Shown piece by piece: positions 17,340 to 27,178 of a stretch of 48,738 bases of DNA. The stretch spans positions 1 through 48,738 of the forward strand of contig CAMBUL010000010.1 in NCBI GenBank assembly GCA_945871065.1. The letters are read 5' to 3'. A program made the position numbers and the translations under genes. Origin of the DNA: Chthoniobacter flavus (GTDB taxonomy: Bacteria > Verrucomicrobiota > Verrucomicrobiia > Chthoniobacterales > JACTMZ01). The notes below the pieces were generated by a model that worked only from the letters and a program-made list of their open reading frames with translations, was not told the origin of the DNA and did not search any database. Numbering within the stretch: the stretch's first letter is position 1; every line of letters starts with the position of its first letter.

Positions 17340-17366
17340 GACCGTCTTCGTGCACTTGCCTTGACC

Positions 17367-18368
17367 ATGCATACGGTGGAAATCATCGGCGGCGGATTGG
17401 CCGGGCTGGCTCTGGGCCTCGGACTCCGCGCCCGGGGCGTTCCCGTGCGACTTATTGAGGCAGGCAAGTACCCGCGACATCGCGTCTGTGGCGAGTTCAT
17501 CACCGGCCTCGACCATGATACCCGCCAGGAACTGCAACTGACCGATATTCTGGCCGGAGCACGCCAGGCCCGCGGTGTCCTTTGGGCGGAACCGGGGCGC
17601 CCCAGTGTGCGGCATGATTTACCCGAGGTGGCCCTTTGTCTCAGCCGCTACCGCTTGGATCAAGCCATGGCCTCCGCCTTCGCTGCGGCCGGCGGTGACT
17701 TGCGCACGGGGTGCCGCGGCCCGTCCGATGCGCAACCGGGGCGCATCATGGCCAGCGGAAGACGTCCCCAGGCCGGTTCACGCTGGGTCGGCCTCAAGCA
17801 GCATTTCCATCAGCTGGATTTGCGGGAGGACCTCGAACTTCATCTTGGTCAAGGGGCTTACGTGGGTCTAACCCGGATCGAAGGCCGGGCCGTTAATGTG
17901 TGCGGCTTGTTTCCGCGTCCCGGCCGTGGTGAGGCCTGCGGGTTAATCGATCGCGTGCGCGCGGCCGGACTCGCCTCTCTCGCGCTCCGTCTGGAATCCG
18001 CCACCCCGGTCGAAGCGAGCGCCTGCGCCGTGGCCGGCCTCGACTATGGCCGGCCAGCTCCGCAACCGGCTGCCCTCGGCGACTACCACGGACTCATTCC
18101 TCCCTTCACCGGTCACGGTATGACCGTGGCCATGCAAAGCGCCGCTCTCGCGGCACGCCGCCTCGAACCATGGGCAAGGGGACGTTTTACCTGGGACGAA
18201 ATGCTCGCCTTGCTCCAGCAGGACCTGCGCCGGCGTTTCGCCCGAAAATTGGCTTGGGGCCGGGTTCTTCACCCGTGGCTTCTTGTCCCGCAGGGGCGTT
18301 GGGTTGTTCACCTGTTGCACCGCTGGGGAGCCCTACCCCTCGGACCCCTTTACCGCCTCTGCCATTGA
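17367..18368 (+). CDS. FAD-dependent oxidoreductase (UbiH/geranylgeranyl reductase-like)
   Basis: The 333-residue flavoprotein starts with a Rossmann FAD motif, EIIGGGLAGLALGLGLRARG (GxGxxG at residues 8-13), followed by LIEAGKYPRHRVCGEF. The CGE segment is typical of the geranylgeranyl reductase/aromatic hydroxylase superfamily. A C-terminal second FAD contact is seen in YHGLIPPFTGHGMTVAMQSA. The start is the ATG at 17367 (a TTG two codons earlier is less likely). It is 5 nt upstream of the type III PKS, a pairing known from alkylresorcinol clusters (Streptomyces srsA-srsC), where the flavoprotein hydroxylates the phenolic product to a quinone. That role is inferred from the neighbour. Confidence 0.88.
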   Translation: MHTVEIIGGGLAGLALGLGLRARGVPVRLIEAGKYPRHRVCGEFITGLDHDTRQELQLTDILAGARQARGVLWAEPGRPSVRHDLPEVALCLSRYRLDQAMASAFAAAGGDLRTGCRGPSDAQPGRIMASGRRPQAGSRWVGLKQHFHQLDLREDLELHLGQGAYVGLTRIEGRAVNVCGLFPRPGRGEACGLIDRVRAAGLASLALRLESATPVEASACAVAGLDYGRPAPQPAALGDYHGLIPPFTGHGMTVAMQSAALAARRLEPWARGRFTWDEMLALLQQDLRRRFARKLAWGRVLHPWLLVPQGRWVVHLLHRWGALPLGPLYRLCH

Positions 18369-18373
18369 GTTCC

Positions 18374-19420
18374 ATGCACCTCCACGCTCTGGCCACGGCC
18401 ACCCCACCCCACTCGTTGACCCAAATCGAGTGCCTTGATCTCGTGCGCAACTCCCCGGCACTGCAGCGGGATCTGGACCGCCGCTCCCGCCTTATGCTTT
18501 CGAGCATTCTGCGCGGCGACTCGGGTATCGCGCGGCGGCAATTCGCCACCCGCGATGTCGGGCGACTTTTCGCGCTGGAAGCAGATGAACTGAATGAGGA
18601 ATTCCGTCATTCTGCCCCCTCCCTAGCCTCCCAGGCACTCCGCCCCGCATTGCAGGCAGCTGGGGTTGAGCCGCACGAAGTCGACGCCTTGGTGGTGTGC
18701 ACCTGCACCGGTTACCTTTGCCCTGGCGTGAGTAGCTATGTTGCGGAGTCTCTCGGCTTGCGGAACGATGCGTGGCTTCAAGATTTGGTCGGACTCGGCT
18801 GCGGTGCGGCTATCCCCGCCCTGCGGGCGGTCAACGGTGTCCTGGCCTCCCACCCGGCAGCCACCGTCGCCTGCGTGGCGGTCGAAGTCTGCTCTGCCGC
18901 GTTCTACCTCGACAATGACCCCGGCGTCATCATCAGTGCCTGTTTGTTCGGGGATGGCGCGGCGGCCAGCATCTGGCGCTCGCAACCGGGCCCTACGGGC
19001 GTCCGATGCCATTCGTACGACACGCACCACGACCCAGAAAACCGCGACCGTATCCGGTTTGAGCAACGCGGTGGCAAGTTGCGGAATTTGCTCCATCCCT
19101 CCGTACCTCGCCTGGCCGCCGGTGCCGTACGAGACCTTTATCATCGCGCGACCGCCTGCCATGGGCCGCCGATCGCCCGCATCCTCAGCCACGCGGGCGG
19201 CAAAGACGTGCTTGCCGCCCTGGAAGCAGAACTGCCCGGGCACGACCTCTCCATTTCGCGGGAAATTTTGCGCCGCCACGGCAATATGAGCAGTCCCTCG
19301 GTTCTCTTTGCCTTGGCTGAAGCGCTGAGCGAAGACCGGCCGCGGCCATCGGAAGATTGGTGGCTCACCTCGTTCGGCGCAGGGTTCAGTGCCCACGCCT
19401 GCCGACTCAGCGCCGCTTAG
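18374..19420 (+). CDS. Type III polyketide synthase (chalcone/stilbene synthase-like)
   Basis: The 348-residue homodimeric KS-like enzyme condenses an acyl-CoA starter with malonyl-CoA units. The Cys-His-Asn triad is complete: Cys143 in LVGLGCGAA, His273 in ILSHAGGK and Asn304 in RHGNMSSPS. Spacing (130 and 31 residues) is close to chalcone synthase (139 and 33). GAGFSAHACRL matches the C-terminal GFGPGL-like motif region. The ATG at 18374 follows the flavoprotein stop by 5 nt. No methyltransferase gene is adjacent, unlike many bacterial T3PKS loci. The product is probably an alkylresorcinol, alkylpyrone or quinone; the starter cannot be deduced. Confidence 0.93.
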   Translation: MHLHALATATPPHSLTQIECLDLVRNSPALQRDLDRRSRLMLSSILRGDSGIARRQFATRDVGRLFALEADELNEEFRHSAPSLASQALRPALQAAGVEPHEVDALVVCTCTGYLCPGVSSYVAESLGLRNDAWLQDLVGLGCGAAIPALRAVNGVLASHPAATVACVAVEVCSAAFYLDNDPGVIISACLFGDGAAASIWRSQPGPTGVRCHSYDTHHDPENRDRIRFEQRGGKLRNLLHPSVPRLAAGAVRDLYHRATACHGPPIARILSHAGGKDVLAALEAELPGHDLSISREILRRHGNMSSPSVLFALAEALSEDRPRPSEDWWLTSFGAGFSAHACRLSAA

Positions 19421-21927
19421 AAACGGATCGGCGGCGGCGCAGGCAGACTCATGGCCGGCCTTTCTGTTTGCACCGCGGCCGAAACCCCGGCGGCTTGAGC
19501 CGGACGGACTTCCGGGATGGCACTGTCCGCGCCGCCAACCGTTCCAGCGGGTAGAACAAACGCATTGACAGCCACGGCTTCGGCCACCGGCATTTCCGCG
19601 GCCATACCTCCCATAGAAGCGGGGGAAACACTTTGGTAGGGATCCGCCGCGCCGACCACCGGGAGCGAGGAAACATCGACCGGACGGATCTTGCTCAGGT
19701 CGATCGCGGCGGCGGCGCGCGGCCACTCCTCCTCGGAAAACTCCTTCACATAAGATTGCGGCCCGCCCGAATGGAGAGGACAGGCGGCGGTTGGCGCTTT
19801 GCCAATGCGCGCGTATTCGGTGTACGCGGTCGACTCGGTGACCTCCGTCCCGTCGGGACGCCTGATTTTCTCGATGCACTTGTCCGTGGCGAGGTCCCCG
19901 CTGAGGCGGCACACCTGCACCTGCTCGACGGTGACCGGGGCTTTGAGCGGGCTGGACGGAAAATCCCCGCGTGAAGCATTCATCACATCGACCCAGACCG
20001 GAAGGGCGAGGTCACGGCTAAAAGCACCGCGAAAAATCTGCTGCGGCTTGTCAAACCCCATCCACACTCCGCAGGTCAGCTTCTCATCGTAGCCCAGAAA
20101 CCATAAATCGGTGAACCCGTAGGATGTTCCCGTCTTGCCGGCCGCCCCGGCCACAGCCAAGCCGTAATCGGTCATTGCCTTCGAGGCAGTCCCCCGGGCC
20201 AGCGCGTCGGTCATCAGACTGTGCACCTGCCATGCGGTGGCAGCGGAAACAACCTCTTTGCGTTCTTCCGTCCGCCGATAAATGGTTTCGCCCTCGCCGT
20301 CATCAATACGGTCTATGATGTGCGTTCGTGCGGGACGGGACCCGCCGCCCGGGAACATGGTGTAGGCAAGGGTCGACTCTTCCAAGGTGAATTCGCTCGA
20401 TCCGAGGTAGGCATTGGCAAAAGGGCGCAGCGGCGAGCCGATCCCGGCATCTTTGGTCAGCTTGCCCAACGCATCGAGGCCAGTTTTGAAACCGACCCGG
20501 ACCACCGCGGCATTTTTACCCCGCACAAAGGCATCCCGCACCGTGACCTCACCCTCGTATTCGTTGTCGGCCCGTTCCACTCCCCACTCCCCGAGCACCC
20601 CCGAACTGCCGCCGATGCCGACCAACCGGTTGTCCAGCGCCCAGTCTTGCACGACCGCCCCAGGGAAGACGCCTTTTTCGAAGGCTGCGGCATAGAGCAG
20701 GGGGACAAAAGCCGTGCCCAGAGGACGGCGGCCTTGCACGCTGCGGTTGTATTCGCTGTGACGAAAATCACGACCGCCGACCATGACAACGATACCGCCG
20801 CTGAGGTTGTCGAGCACGAGGACGGCTCCCTGCAGATAGGTCGGGGGCATGGTGTTGGAAGCACCTGGCTTCGGCGGACGCGCGTCATAGCGGCGGCGAA
20901 AATCCTCGAATGTTTCGTTGGCATATCCCGGCCGTTTCTCCACTTCGGCAAGCCGCCGTTGCAGTGCGCGCTCAGCCACGCGCTGCATCTCCGCATCAAT
21001 GGTGGTGTAAATGCGAAATCCGCCGTTCATGGCCCGCTCAAAACCAAGCGAAGCAATGGCCTGCTGGCGGATGTGGTCGAGCGCGTAAGACTCTTTGACC
21101 GGGCTGGGCCGCTCCCGAATCACCAGCTGGTCCGCCACCGCTTTCTGATATTCGAGGCCAGTGAGAAAGCCCATGTCGCGCATTTGCCTGAGCACGACAT
21201 CGCGATTTTCACGGGCACCTGCGGGATTGGCCCAGGGAGAAAGACTGTTCGGGCTCTTGAGAAGTCCGGCCAAGGTGGCCGCCTGCGAAGCTGTAAGTTC
21301 CGCAGCGGAAACCCCGAAATAGCCCCGCGCCGCCGCCTCCGCACCGTAAAGACCGCCGCCGAAGTAGACGCGGTTGAGATACATCTCCATGATTTTTTCC
21401 TTGGGAAATTTTTTCTCGATCTGCACGGCTAGCGCCATCTCAAGGAGCTTGCGACGATAGGTCCGCTCTTTCAGGTCGAAGGAGTTGCGCGCCAGTTGCT
21501 GCGTGACCGTGCTCGCCCCCTGACGGATACGTCCTGCCGTCCAATTGGCCTGAGCGGCCCGGACTATGCCCCAATAATCCACGCCCGTGTGCTCCCAGAA
21601 TCGTTGGTCCTCGGCCGCGACAACTGCTTTGACCAGCCAAGGCGACAGCTTCTCATAGGGGACCGGATCACGGTTCTGGATAAAGATCTTACCCATCAGG
21701 TCGCCCTTGCGGTCGTAAATGAGCGAGGCTGACTCCATGCGCTCGAGCCGGCTGAGATCAAACTGTCCGGCCAGGATCAGAAACTCGGAACGAGCCGAAA
21801 GGACAACGACAGCACCCACGGCCGCACCGAGCAGAATGAGAAGCAAGGGCAGTAGCAACAGCCAGCGCCAGGCTCGTCGGCGGCGAGGCTGCGGGTCATT
21901 CTCCCAAGAGTATTTCTGGCTTGGCAT
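19417..21927 (-). CDS. Class A penicillin-binding protein (PBP1A/1C-like) with degraded transpeptidase motifs
   Basis: The 836-residue bitopic protein has a basic N-terminus, one membrane anchor (about 19-43) and a GT51 glycosyltransferase domain with catalytic Glu106 in AAEDQRFWEH, QGASTVTQQLARN, and EKIMEMYLNRVYFGG around Glu181. A penicillin-binding domain follows (about 320-640). In that domain the SxxK box is TAFV (405-408, context RRPLGTAFVPLLYAAAF), the SxN box is GKN (470-472) and only KTG (598-600, AAGKTGTSYG) remains. The catalytic Ser and Lys are therefore absent. The last 130 residues are Ala/Pro-rich. I chose the ATG at 21927 (MPSQKYSWEN); a longer start at 21981 adds 18 residues. 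Its stop overlaps the PKS stop by 3 nt. Confidence 0.92.
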   Translation of the reverse strand: MPSQKYSWENDPQPRRRRAWRWLLLLPLLLILLGAAVGAVVVLSARSEFLILAGQFDLSRLERMESASLIYDRKGDLMGKIFIQNRDPVPYEKLSPWLVKAVVAAEDQRFWEHTGVDYWGIVRAAQANWTAGRIRQGASTVTQQLARNSFDLKERTYRRKLLEMALAVQIEKKFPKEKIMEMYLNRVYFGGGLYGAEAAARGYFGVSAAELTASQAATLAGLLKSPNSLSPWANPAGARENRDVVLRQMRDMGFLTGLEYQKAVADQLVIRERPSPVKESYALDHIRQQAIASLGFERAMNGGFRIYTTIDAEMQRVAERALQRRLAEVEKRPGYANETFEDFRRRYDARPPKPGASNTMPPTYLQGAVLVLDNLSGGIVVMVGGRDFRHSEYNRSVQGRRPLGTAFVPLLYAAAFEKGVFPGAVVQDWALDNRLVGIGGSSGVLGEWGVERADNEYEGEVTVRDAFVRGKNAAVVRVGFKTGLDALGKLTKDAGIGSPLRPFANAYLGSSEFTLEESTLAYTMFPGGGSRPARTHIIDRIDDGEGETIYRRTEERKEVVSAATAWQVHSLMTDALARGTASKAMTDYGLAVAGAAGKTGTSYGFTDLWFLGYDEKLTCGVWMGFDKPQQIFRGAFSRDLALPVWVDVMNASRGDFPSSPLKAPVTVEQVQVCRLSGDLATDKCIEKIRRPDGTEVTESTAYTEYARIGKAPTAACPLHSGGPQSYVKEFSEEEWPRAAAAIDLSKIRPVDVSSLPVVGAADPYQSVSPASMGGMAAEMPVAEAVAVNAFVLPAGTVGGADSAIPEVRPAQAAGVSAAVQTERPAMSLPAPPPIRF

Positions 21928-22035
21928 GCCTTGTGTGCGATGTTGGCCAGTCGGCGAACGCGGACACCCGCGGACGGGCACCGGGCCAAGACAACTGGAC
22001 TTGCACCCTACACCATTGCAGGGTCGTTAGCCAAG

Positions 22036-23913
22036 ATGGACGAACACCGAAGCCAGAACCAGTCCGTCCTTTACTGGGACGCGGACTGCGCCTTCTGCCG
22101 GCGCTGGGTCGAGCGGTGGCAAGCTGGCACCGGCGAAGCGGTCATTTATCGCACCCTGCAAGCAGCACCGCCCGACGTCATGGCCGCGGCCGGTGGCGAG
22201 CCTTTCCAGCGCATCGTGATGTCCTGCCCGGACGGGTCCCTCATCACCGGCGCCCATGCGGCACTGGCCGCTCTGGCCGCGGACCAGCCCGGGAGCAATC
22301 TGCTGCTGCGTGCTTACCATACCCTGCCGCTGTTCCGCCAGATCGCCGAAGCCGCCTACCATTGGGTGGCCAGACACCGGAGTTGGTGTGCCATTATGAC
22401 AAACTTTTTCTGGGGACGCGAAACGCTGGTCACAAGATACTGCATTTCCGGATATTTTTTCCCCCGTCTCATCGGCCTGATCTATGTCTTCGCCTTCCTC
22501 TCGCTCTGGTCGCAGATCGACGGGTTGGCCGGGTCCCTGGGAATTCTGCCGGTCGAGGCTCACCTCACAACGGTGAAGGAGAGCTTCACGGCGGCCGACC
22601 ATCCATGGTCTGCCTGGTGGGCGGTACCGAGCCTCCTCTGGTTCGGATCCAGCGACCTCATGCTCCACCTGTGGCTTGCCGCGGGAACGGCTGCCTCGGT
22701 GGCACTCGTCCTCGGCCTGCTCCCGGCGGTCTCCGCCCTCACTGCTTGGATTTGCTACCTCTCGTTGGCCTCCGCGGTCCCGCTTTTTCTCAATTTCCAG
22801 TGGGATGCACTCCTGCTCGAGGCAGGCCTGCTGGTTGTCTTCTACGTTCCTTGGTCACTGCGCGCGCCCTGCGGCGCCTCGGCCCCGCCATGGGCCGCCC
22901 GTCTTCTCGTCTGGTGGCTTCTTTTTCGTCTGATGTTCGAATCCGGCTTGGTCAAGCTCTACGGCTTCGACGCCACCGGACGCAACACATGGCTCGAAGG
23001 CACCGCGCTGGACTACCACTATTTCACCCAGCCAATTCCGGTCTGGACAAGTTGGTGGTTCGCGCAATGCCCCGACTGGTTCCATGTTCTTTCCCTCACC
23101 GTTGTCTTCGCCATCGAATTGCTCGGGCCATTTTTTATAATCGGTCCGCGGCGCCTGCGGATGGCCGCATTTTGGGCCTTCAGCTTGCTCATGGTTCTCA
23201 TCATGGCCTCCGGCCACTACGGCTTCTTCAACCTGCTGACCCTTGCTCTCTGCGTCAGTTTGGTCGACGACGCCTGCTGGCCCTCTTGGCTGCGGCAGCG
23301 CTTCGCCGGGAGTACCGTGGCCACAGCGGCGTGGCCCGCGCGCCTTCGAGGCAAACTTTTGCCCTGGTTTGCCATGCTCATAGTGGTTCTCACCACCCTG
23401 CAACTGCTCGTCGTCCTGCGGTTTGTCCATCCGTCGGCGGTTGCACCCCTGCTCGGAGCATTTGCCCCACTGCGCAGTGCGAATTCGTACGGACTCTTCA
23501 GTGTAATGACGACCGAGCGTCCGGAAATCACCATCGAAGCCAGCGTGGACGGCCGTAATTGGCAGCCTTACCGTTTTCGCTACCAAATGGCGGCGAATAA
23601 AAACACCCTGCCCTTTTTGTTGCCTCACATGCCCCGGTTGGATTGGCAGATGTGGTTTGCCGCTTTGGAATACCGTTCCTCGGGTCAACCCCCGGGATGG
23701 ATCATGCCCCTGCTCGGCCGCCTGCAGGAGCAGTCCGGCCCGGTTCTTGGCTTGCTTTATCCGGACGGCAATCCGGATTTGTCGCCGTCCTTTTTTCGCT
23801 TGCGTCTCGACTTGCTGACCTTCGCGCCGCGTGAAATGCATGCCGCCACCGGATGTGTGTGGCAGGCATCACCCCTGCCCGGCTACACCATCGAGGGCAA
23901 TCTCCAGCGCTGA
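22036..23913 (+). CDS. DCC thiol-disulfide oxidoreductase fused to a lipase maturation factor-like domain
   Basis: The 625-residue protein opens with a DCC (DUF393) domain: VLYWDADCAFCRRWVERW carries the DxDCxxC signature (Cys18, Cys21), running to about residue 120. The remainder is a polytopic membrane region with some ten hydrophobic segments and ends in a soluble C-terminal part (about 480-625, SYGLFSVMTTERPEI, WFAALEYRSS, PPGWIMPLLGRL) typical of the lipase maturation factor family. LMF proteins help lipases fold in eukaryotes; bacterial roles are unknown. The ATG at 22036 was chosen because the fold begins just after it. It is divergent from the PBP gene with a 108-nt gap. Confidence 0.88.
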   Translation: MDEHRSQNQSVLYWDADCAFCRRWVERWQAGTGEAVIYRTLQAAPPDVMAAAGGEPFQRIVMSCPDGSLITGAHAALAALAADQPGSNLLLRAYHTLPLFRQIAEAAYHWVARHRSWCAIMTNFFWGRETLVTRYCISGYFFPRLIGLIYVFAFLSLWSQIDGLAGSLGILPVEAHLTTVKESFTAADHPWSAWWAVPSLLWFGSSDLMLHLWLAAGTAASVALVLGLLPAVSALTAWICYLSLASAVPLFLNFQWDALLLEAGLLVVFYVPWSLRAPCGASAPPWAARLLVWWLLFRLMFESGLVKLYGFDATGRNTWLEGTALDYHYFTQPIPVWTSWWFAQCPDWFHVLSLTVVFAIELLGPFFIIGPRRLRMAAFWAFSLLMVLIMASGHYGFFNLLTLALCVSLVDDACWPSWLRQRFAGSTVATAAWPARLRGKLLPWFAMLIVVLTTLQLLVVLRFVHPSAVAPLLGAFAPLRSANSYGLFSVMTTERPEITIEASVDGRNWQPYRFRYQMAANKNTLPFLLPHMPRLDWQMWFAALEYRSSGQPPGWIMPLLGRLQEQSGPVLGLLYPDGNPDLSPSFFRLRLDLLTFAPREMHAATGCVWQASPLPGYTIEGNLQR

Positions 23914-24677: not shown

Positions 24678-25586
24678 TCAGGGCTGGCTCGTGACGATTT
24701 CCAGCTGATCGGGGGTAGTGATCCGTATCTGAAGCTGGCGGCCTTTGTAGTTCTCCAGCGTGCCGCGCACGAGGACTTGCTGGTTCACATACTGGTCAAA
24801 ACCTTCCGGAAACTTGTCGTAGGACATGCGAAAAACCACCGCCACCAATCCGGACTTCCGATCGCCGAAGTTGAGGAAGGTGATTCCGCCGTTGGCATCC
24901 TGGCCGACATTTTTGATCACTCCTTCAACCGCCACCTCCGAGCCGACACTTGACTGCAGGCCGGCCACATCTTCGGCCGGCAAGACATCCGCCCCGGGGG
25001 ACGTTCCGCGGGCGGAGGGGAGCGTGGCTTCGCCCGTCCCGGACCGGAGCGAATCGGTGACTGCCGGCGCTTCATCGCTTCCATCCGTCTCGGTGGCCGT
25101 TTCTGAAGGTGCCGGCAGATCGCGACCGAGGACTTCCTCTATCTGCTCCTCACCAAGATTCGTGGGATGCCCCGCCCAGACAACTTTGCCCGAAGCGTCG
25201 GCGAGAAAAGCATGGGGTATGCCATCCACCCCCATCTCCCGGTTGAGCTTGCCCCCGGAGTCGGTGGCCACGGCGTAGTCCATCGGGGTGGTCCTTTGGA
25301 ACTTGCGAATGACGCCGGAGGATTCGTCGGTGACCCCGATAATAACCAGTCCGCGGTCTTTGTATTTCGCGTGGAGTTCGTTGAGATGCGGAATACTTTC
25401 CCGGCAAGGGGGACACCACGTCGCCCAAAACTCGAGCAGCACCGGCTTTCCCGCTTGGACCGGATCGGGGCCGAGAAAGTTTAGCCGCATATCCGGCAAG
25501 GATTCACCGATGGAAACAGCTTCCGCCGGACAACAAGCCAACGAAAGCGCAGTCAGACATATCACGCAGAGGGAGTTAATTTTCAC
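24678..25586 (-). CDS. TlpA-like exported thioredoxin with C-terminal OB-fold domain
   Basis: The 302-residue protein starts (GTG at 25586) with a signal peptide KINSLCVICLTALSLACC, no clear lipobox, then a TlpA/ResA thioredoxin domain (about 25-155). The redox pair is Cys58 and Cys61 in FWATWCPPCRES, with the cis-Pro loop in VDGIPHAFLAD. A Glu/Ser/Thr-rich linker (about 160-215) leads to a C-terminal domain (about 220-302; VEGVIKNVGQDANGGITFL, QVLVRGTLENYKGRQLQI) that reads like a small OB-fold barrel. The frame continues upstream into the neighbour, but no signal peptide would fit there. It probably acts as a periplasmic thiol reductant; the OB tail is unusual. Confidence 0.86.
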   Translation of the reverse strand: MKINSLCVICLTALSLACCPAEAVSIGESLPDMRLNFLGPDPVQAGKPVLLEFWATWCPPCRESIPHLNELHAKYKDRGLVIIGVTDESSGVIRKFQRTTPMDYAVATDSGGKLNREMGVDGIPHAFLADASGKVVWAGHPTNLGEEQIEEVLGRDLPAPSETATETDGSDEAPAVTDSLRSGTGEATLPSARGTSPGADVLPAEDVAGLQSSVGSEVAVEGVIKNVGQDANGGITFLNFGDRKSGLVAVVFRMSYDKFPEGFDQYVNQQVLVRGTLENYKGRQLQIRITTPDQLEIVTSQP

Positions 25587-25708
25587 AAGACTGATTGAAC
25601 GGCGTGAGCGACCTTCGGGCAAGAGCGCGCTCTCGACCCCGGGCCTGCCATCGAAGTTTGAGGCCGCAAGACTGCCCGCCCGGCTGACTATCCGTCTCCG
25701 CATGGGTC

Positions 25709-27178
25709 TCAGGCCTGCCCCACCGGCCTGCCCTCTGGCGCGCTTCGCGGCTTGGGCTGCTGGCGTGCCAGATGCCAGCCGAACAACTTCATGACCAAAA
25801 GATGCATCGGCGCCTGCGTGATGCGGTAAAACCACCATGGCAAGGAGGGGCTGTAGTTGAAGATCGCGGCCAATACACTCCGCCGGTCCGGACTTTCCCG
25901 GAACTCGAGCCGCGCCGGGGCCCGGCCGTCGGGAACATCGTCTGCCCTGACCAGCAACCCGCCGGTAATGTAGTAGAGCGGACGGTCGACCGACGAACGG
26001 TTGCTAGAATAGCTCAGCTCGAGCAACGGACGGCGGAGGCCGGACACGCGGAAAGCCAGATTGAGTTGATCGTCGACCGTCACCCGCAGGACCCGCCGGA
26101 AGAGCGACGGGAGCCAACTGGCATACTCGCGCGCCACCCACGTGGCATCATAGCCCGGCGGAAGCGGCAACCGTTGGATGGAGCACACATAGCGACCTTG
26201 CTCGCTGTGCACGTGGCGCCGGGCCAAATGCTGGTCGATTTCGGGAGCCGGCGCCTTGACGCCCGGCAGCGCCTCCTCCAAAGCCTCGTCAAACGATTGC
26301 GGCTCGATCCCCGCCCTCTCCTGCAAAGTCGGGGAATGCGCCACCATGGCATGACGCAAACTTTCGACCAGCGGGGCAATAAGCTCACGGTGTCCGCCGG
26401 TCACCAACCGCACCCCGAGCACGCCCAGCCGGGTCGGAATAAAAGGCAGGGCGATGATCAGGCGCTTTTTTCCCAGCCGCACGGCGGTGCGCCGCATGAG
26501 ATCGAGATAAGTCATCACCTCGGCCCCGCCGAGGTCGAAGGCGCGGCCATACATTTCCTCCCGACCCACGCAAAAACGCAGCAACTTGACCACATCGCGC
26601 AAACCGACCGGTTGGGTCATCGACCGCGTCCAGTGCGGACACAACAAGACCGGCGAGCGTTCCACCAATCTCGCCACAATGCGGAAGGACGACCCTTGCG
26701 CGCCGACGATCAGCCCCGCGCGCAAACTGGTGACCGGCACACCACGTGCCGCCAACACACGCTCTACCTCGAGACGGCTGGCCAAGTGACGCGACAACTG
26801 GGTGTCGTCCGGAATGATGCCTCCCAGATAAAGGATTTGCTTCACGCCGGCCCGCGCGGCCGAACGGGCAAAGTTGTCGGCCAGAATGAAATCCATGTCT
26901 TCGAACCGCGCCTGAGTCAGCCGGGCCGGCAGCATCGAATGAACGAGATAGACCGCGTAGTCCGCACCCTCGAGGGCGCGTTCCGTCTGCAGCATGGAGA
27001 ACAGATCGCATTGCCGCCATTCCACGCCCGTCAGTTCCGCTGCCGGCGAACGCCGCAGGGCAATCACATCGAAGTCCGCGGCCAGCACTGGAAGCAAAGC
27101 CGTGCCGACAAAACCGGAGGCACCGGCCACCGCAACCACCGGACGCTTTTTGCCTGCCACCATGCCGCCATCAAACAC
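25709..27178 (-). CDS. NAD(P)-binding epimerase-like protein with C-terminal DUF2867-like domain
   Basis: The 489-residue protein has an atypical short-chain dehydrogenase/NmrA-NDUFA9-like domain: nucleotide-binding VAVAGASGFVGTALLP (GxxGxxG at about 19-25), the ILYLGGII and SLRAGLIVG strands, and no classical YxxxK in its place. The C-terminal third (about 320-475; SIQRLPLPPG, YYITGGLLVRADD, LEFRESPDRR, PWWFYRITQAPMHLLVMKLFGWHL) matches the DUF2867 tail found in YbjT-like proteins. It may be a quinone- or redox-related reductase; the substrate is unknown. An alternative ATG five codons in (27163) is equally possible. It is separated by 122 nt from the TlpA gene on the same strand. Confidence 0.85.
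   Translation of the reverse strand: MFDGGMVAGKKRPVVAVAGASGFVGTALLPVLAADFDVIALRRSPAAELTGVEWRQCDLFSMLQTERALEGADYAVYLVHSMLPARLTQARFEDMDFILADNFARSAARAGVKQILYLGGIIPDDTQLSRHLASRLEVERVLAARGVPVTSLRAGLIVGAQGSSFRIVARLVERSPVLLCPHWTRSMTQPVGLRDVVKLLRFCVGREEMYGRAFDLGGAEVMTYLDLMRRTAVRLGKKRLIIALPFIPTRLGVLGVRLVTGGHRELIAPLVESLRHAMVAHSPTLQERAGIEPQSFDEALEEALPGVKAPAPEIDQHLARRHVHSEQGRYVCSIQRLPLPPGYDATWVAREYASWLPSLFRRVLRVTVDDQLNLAFRVSGLRRPLLELSYSSNRSSVDRPLYYITGGLLVRADDVPDGRAPARLEFRESPDRRSVLAAIFNYSPSLPWWFYRITQAPMHLLVMKLFGWHLARQQPKPRSAPEGRPVGQA

Follow-up and report, generated by a model that had tools for sequence, protein, structure and literature searches.

A class A penicillin-binding protein with a dead-looking transpeptidase domain in Chthoniobacter flavus and related Verrucomicrobiota

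Gene and domain layout

We analyzed a 48,738-nucleotide stretch of a Chthoniobacter flavus genome (contig CAMBUL010000010.1, positions 1 to 48,738; hereafter the window) that encodes a class A penicillin-binding protein (PBP), P0001, in which an intact glycosyltransferase (GT) domain is joined to a transpeptidase (TP) domain that appears to have lost its catalytic residues. The gene occupies 19417..21927, is on the minus strand like all of its features described below, and encodes 836 amino acids plus a stop codon. It is defined by its open reading frame, with an ATG at 21927 and the stop at 19417-19419, by matches to Pfam and NCBIfam, and by single-copy orthologs. An alternative, longer frame with a GTG start reaches 21981; in the alignment, the ATG start (MPxxxYSWE) is kept across the genus.

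The N-terminal part of P0001 has the features expected of a class A PBP. A transmembrane helix at residues about 17-54 (21766..21879; helix 17-54 in the AlphaFold model) is followed by a GT51 transglycosylase domain at residues 77-249 (21181..21699; PF00912, Transgly, 213.8 bits), which includes the motif EDxxFxxHxG, the catalytic Glu106 and a second glutamate, Glu163. The C-terminal part has the penicillin-binding fold of PF00905, recognized by both Pfam and Foldseek, at residues about 367-616 (20080..20829); the Pfam match is weak (53.5 bits), yet over the cut-off of 22.1. P0001 scores 466.4 bits against TIGR02074 (PBP_1a_fam), under the curated cut-off of 508.75, and 161.6 bits against TIGR02070 (monofunctional transglycosylase), under 182.65, and it has a TP domain. 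A beta-rich C-terminal extension at about 660-723 (19759..19950), seen in the alignment and in the AlphaFold model, contains the conserved cysteines Cys673, Cys684 and Cys716.

Of the three boxes of an active DD-transpeptidase, SxxK, SxN and KTG, only the last is kept in P0001. The SxxK position reads TAFV (405-408; 20704..20715), with Ser replaced by Thr and Lys by Val, the SxN position reads GKN (470-472; 20512..20520), and KTG is present at 598-600 (20128..20136). Between the first two boxes lies an insert, DNRLVGIGGSSGVLGEWGVE (432-451; 20575..20634), that is recognized from alignments as invariant and specific to this family and that has low confidence in the structure model.

Active-site residues across the family

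An earlier reading made from the sequence alone had proposed these box assignments, and Glu106 within EDQRFWEH; they are exact in the translation and in our alignments. Its identification of TAFV as the SxxK equivalent also holds, since multiple alignments agree and the AlphaFold model places Thr405 at the start of helix 404-417 and Lys598 on strand 596-601, as in PBPs.

We extended the comparison to a family alignment of 116 members, using the residue numbering of P0001. Position 405 is Thr in 111 members and Ser in five. The lysine at position 408 is retained in 19 members and lost in 97, where it is replaced by T, L, F, V, I, A, G or Q. Position 470 is Ser in 70 members, Gly in 45 and Ala in one, and position 472 is Asn in 85, Ile in 25, Val in four and Thr in two. 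Lys598 and Gly600 of the KTG box are each found in 115 of the 116, and Glu106 and Glu163 of the GT domain in every member. An altered SxxK box is general among orthologs, a point that the sequence-only reading had proposed for checking, with the exception of one nested genus in which four of five genomes have intact SxxK and SxN. The motif DNRxVMIGGxTGILGEWGxE is invariant in the family, including this genus, and is lacking in paralogs. P0001 itself falls within the clade, has Thr at the SxxK position and carries GGxxGxLGEWGxE. One member, L252 (G609, f124), has lost all three boxes (TGFL/SKI/QTS).

This degree of loss is confined to the family in our comparisons. All 38 verrucomicrobial paralogs have S, K, S, N, K and G at the catalytic positions, and SxxK is kept in every one of the roughly 70 class A PBPs that we sampled in other phyla. 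Chance loss is rejected on these grounds, as the Ser of SxxK is kept in both sets. Sequencing error, which the sequence-only reading had named as a possible source of the altered boxes, and misassembly are likewise rejected: orthologs of 97% and 99% identity in two other genomes have the same boxes, as does one of 89% identity, and all orthologs in the order agree. Another possibility raised there, a serine followed three residues later by a lysine elsewhere in the TP domain, was not borne out. A string scan found three SxxK strings in P0001, at 275, 659 and 725, none of them inside the TP domain, and no Ser or Cys preceding a Lys is conserved elsewhere in the family.

Distribution of the family and its intact paralogs

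Across 57 genomes from the genus and order of the window, the orthologs are single-copy and nearly always present, with 43-99% identity over most of the length. The order is Chthoniobacterales/Spartobacteria-like; one of its orthologs, L130, comes from a Spartobacteria bacterium record (JAJPGZ010000002.1; G028:C14). The exceptions within the order are two 0.9-Mb genomes without a match, a 94% complete genome with the paralog only (G022), a 73% complete genome (G042), and one with a fragment only (G038). The two 0.9-Mb genomes (G017 and G027), each a single contig, lack any match to class A PBPs; these are reduced genomes, probably host-associated.

Beyond the order, orthologs were found in families f35 and f15, which are Akkermansiaceae- and Verrucomicrobiaceae-like, f35 probably being Verrucomicrobiaceae. 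The type strain of Akkermansia muciniphila, ATCC BAA-835, carries a copy with TAIL/SKI/KTG (L097, G144), and Verrucomicrobium spinosum probably carries one as well. A metagenome-assembled genome titled Akkermansia muciniphila has a copy with TAFT and GRN (L132, CAMAZK010000065.1), closer to the f35 type than to the TAIL and SKI of the type strain, so its name may be wrong. The suggestion that the altered boxes are a lineage feature of the Planctomycetes-Verrucomicrobia-Chlamydiae (PVC) bacteria thus stands for the order of the window and for these two families, and does not extend to the whole phylum or the whole PVC group.

Family profile searches, which covered this phylum, separate the family cleanly from other class A PBPs. 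Among 384 genomes of the class, the lowest-scoring member reached 834 bits and the best other class A PBP 721; among 338 genomes of the phylum, the lowest member reached 893 bits and the best non-member 721. In the phylum sample, 50 genomes had the pseudo-transpeptidase copy, and 49 of these had a second class A match past an E value of 1e-140. Every full-length paralog examined keeps SxxK, SxN and KTG.

The genome of the window (2.53 Mb, 95% complete) encodes two GT51 proteins, P0001 and one on another contig (G000:C110). The latter has GSSVK and SRN, and its gene is cut by the contig end. The same genome encodes three more TP proteins without GT51 (class B), with GSTFK- or GSTYK-type boxes and KTG, and two SEDS polymerases. 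The live paralog and the class B PBPs indicate that cross-linking capacity exists elsewhere in the genome. Earlier, P0001 had been taken as a bifunctional enzyme turned polymerase, with cross-linking left to another enzyme. The first part does not describe the change in the cell, because P0001 is a separate paralog in a genome that also encodes one intact class A PBP and three class B PBPs, likewise intact. The second part is right in that the capacity is encoded elsewhere, although not in unrelated enzymes alone, given the intact class A paralog.

Phylogeny and the serine-bearing genus

After removal of the motif columns, trees group the family as a single clade (SH-aLRT 100), and the same split is recovered from the GT domain alone and from the TP domain alone. 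We counted two state changes on the tree for Thr/Ser, six for the lysine and six for SxN. All five Ser members (L107, L108, L242, L243 and L241) belong to a single genus, f6 g30, which is nested within TAFK members. SxxK, SxN and KTG are complete in four of the five, and the other has SAFL. A topology in which the Thr members form one clade without this genus was rejected by the AU test (p 0.003, on a quick tree of a reduced set). Gene conversion or a domain swap as the origin of the Ser-type genus was also rejected, as GT and TP trees both put the genus in the same subclade; conversion over a very short stretch at SxxK is possible. The economical reading of these sequences would be a single basal Ser-to-Thr change followed by reversal in f6 g30. 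Alternatively, Ser could have changed to Thr several times independently, with f6 g30 as the sole retention. Counts of changes alone do not separate gain from loss.

Selection on the transpeptidase domain and predicted structure

The TP domain lost its catalytic residues without relaxed selection. In 23 genomes with both copies (253 pairs), the median ratio of TP to GT distance was 1.20 in the pseudo-transpeptidase family and in the live paralog alike, and the ratio was higher in the former in 123 of the 253 pairs. Within genera, dN/dS of the TP domain was about 0.02-0.2 by the Nei-Gojobori method, with some dS values near saturation, which is like the live paralog. There was one internal stop, a TGA, in about 140 copies.

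The domain is also confidently predicted to keep the PBP fold. An AlphaFold model from a 51-row alignment had a mean pLDDT of 84.7, mostly above 93 in the GT and TP domains, and its best Foldseek matches were Escherichia coli PBP1b (E 3e-38) and Acinetobacter baumannii PBP1a. The family-specific segment 440-451, for which seven of the 51 rows (query included) came from the family, had pLDDT below 50, and the model does not resolve the position of the motif relative to the active site.

Discussion

An intact GT domain with a dead-looking TP domain is the best reading of these sequences. We consider it probable that P0001 and its orthologs are dedicated glycan polymerases in which the TP domain no longer acylates and has been retained as a structural or regulatory module, with cross-linking carried out by the live class A paralog or class B PBPs. 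The GT51 domain would polymerize lipid II in the usual manner of class A PBPs. The TP domain would keep its fold and no longer be acylated by donor peptides, because Thr replaces the Ser nucleophile, the general-base Lys is gone and SxN is also altered. The retained domain might orient the GT domain, bind a stem peptide or a partner, or pair with the live class A paralog or class B PBPs, and these enzymes would cross-link the strands that the pseudo-transpeptidase copy makes. In V. spinosum, a relative, the peptidoglycan is canonical, with ordinary tetra-tetra cross-links, and the class B PBPs are essential (PMC12283558), which points to other enzymes or the live paralog as the cross-linkers in these bacteria. 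In Clostridioides difficile, septa still form when PBP1 is TP-dead, and PBP3 acts without catalysis (PMC12539705).

Several observations weigh against this interpretation. The loss of TP catalysis is deduced from sequence, and some family members might be active: Lys408 is kept in 15 Thr members, and all three boxes are complete in four nested members. Lys598 and Gly600 are nearly invariant. Every one of the 111 members without Ser at position 405 has Thr there, which is stricter than a purely structural role demands. Such strictness, together with the new Glu/Trp motif, would be compatible with ligand binding or with unusual chemistry. One form of the latter is that the domain remains catalytic, with Thr405 as the nucleophile and, as the base, Lys408 where it is kept, Glu447/Glu451 or Lys471/Lys598, and acts as a slow, beta-lactam-insensitive transpeptidase or carboxypeptidase. 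The near invariance of Glu447, Glu451 and Lys598, both glutamates being family-specific, and a TP constraint equal to that of the live paralog would fit such an enzyme. We regard it as unlikely, given that Lys408 is lost in most members through unlike replacements, that SxN is lost in many (GKN, SKI), that L252 lacks all three boxes, and that the model does not resolve where the new motif lies relative to the active site. A broader proposal, which we find doubtful although less so, is that the family is an ancient regulatory pseudo-transpeptidase whose invariant Thr and new Gly/Glu/Trp motif bind a specific ligand or partner or support Thr-based chemistry, and that f6 g30 re-acquired complete SxxK, SxN and KTG boxes as a re-animated dead enzyme.

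The remaining explanations have still smaller probabilities. The whole protein could be a non-catalytic scaffold, or a protein that binds lipid II or peptidoglycan, if the GT domain were inactive too; the degenerate TP domain would allow this, as would the second class A PBP and the two SEDS polymerases in the genome. The complete conservation of Glu106 and Glu163, the conservation of other GT51 motifs and a GT domain that evolves as slowly as that of the live paralog make it very unlikely. Degeneration of the three catalytic boxes is also what would be expected of a functionless relic, an explanation that is scarcely credible and that the rates and dN/dS rule out; the new invariant motif, retention over two orders and the near absence of internal stops likewise speak against neutral decay. 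The chance that the domain has ordinary TP activity through another Ser/Lys pair, the motif reading being an alignment artefact, seems negligible. SxxK is present in the four nested members, and against this stand the results of the Ser/Lys scans and the position of Thr405 at the start of its helix.

P0001 resembles known systems in part. It shares the membrane anchor, GT51 motifs, TP fold and domain order of bifunctional class A PBPs (E. coli PBP1A/1B, A. baumannii PBP1a; TIGR02074), and differs from them in lacking the Ser and Lys of SxxK and the Ser of SxN and in having the DNRxVMIGGxTGILGEWGxE insert. Like monofunctional GT51 enzymes (MtgA/SgtB; TIGR02070), it may polymerize without cross-linking; those enzymes have no TP domain, whereas the pseudo-transpeptidase copy keeps one under selection. 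A TP domain that works without catalysis would be analogous to the non-catalytic roles of class B PBPs, such as FtsI activating FtsW and C. difficile PBP3 (PMC12539705). The partner of FtsI is a SEDS polymerase, and class B proteins still have SxxK, whereas the pseudo-TP domain and its GT51 polymerase are parts of one protein.

Class A PBPs without SxxK are already known as a general idea, since they have been noted in Streptomyces (SAV_4423, STRVI_3845 and others), in 13 of 100 sequences that were judged able to function as PBPs (PMC6273383). Compared by their published description, these proteins share with P0001 the natural loss of SxxK, with SxN and KTG mostly kept (PMC6273383). The pseudo-transpeptidase copy differs from them in being one clade fixed over two orders of another phylum, with selection tests. 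What appears to be new is the whole clade with a dead domain under selection; no description of a verrucomicrobial pseudo-transpeptidase family was found in the open-access literature searched, subscription journals being outside its scope.

Surveys treat and count class A PBPs as bifunctional; for example, Akkermansia was scored as having classical peptidoglycan synthesis on account of its class A PBP (PMC8406291). In nearly every genome sampled here from the order of the window and from the two further families, A. muciniphila and probably V. spinosum included, the TP domain of one class A PBP appears unable to bind penicillin and to be kept for another purpose. The family may provide a glycan polymerase with a TP domain beyond the reach of beta-lactam acylation, and a natural separation of polymerization from cross-linking in which the non-catalytic service of a TP domain to its GT could be tested. 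Genetic tools, namely Tn-seq and targeted mutagenesis, are available for V. spinosum (PMC12283558).

Gene neighborhood

In several lineages (f9, f5, f6, f35 and f15), the PBP gene adjoins a divergently oriented Methyltransf_28 (PF02636) gene (L129:4767-5996, L130:4806-5915, L132:1-1071 and L150:4798-5910). This gene is absent from the equivalent place in the window, and the genus of the window shares local neighbors only. The adjacency supports vertical inheritance of the PBP from before the split of the two orders and gives no functional clue. On one side of P0001, the window contains a FAD-binding oxidoreductase gene and then a type III polyketide synthase-like gene (PF08392) (17361-19420), whose position beside the PBP is conserved in the genus. 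On the other side, a DCC1-like thiol-disulfide oxidoreductase domain is fused to a lipase maturation factor (LMF1) domain (21931-23913), and a further gene (24678-25838) encodes a single chain with a thioredoxin-like part followed by an OB-fold (tRNA_anti-codon) domain.

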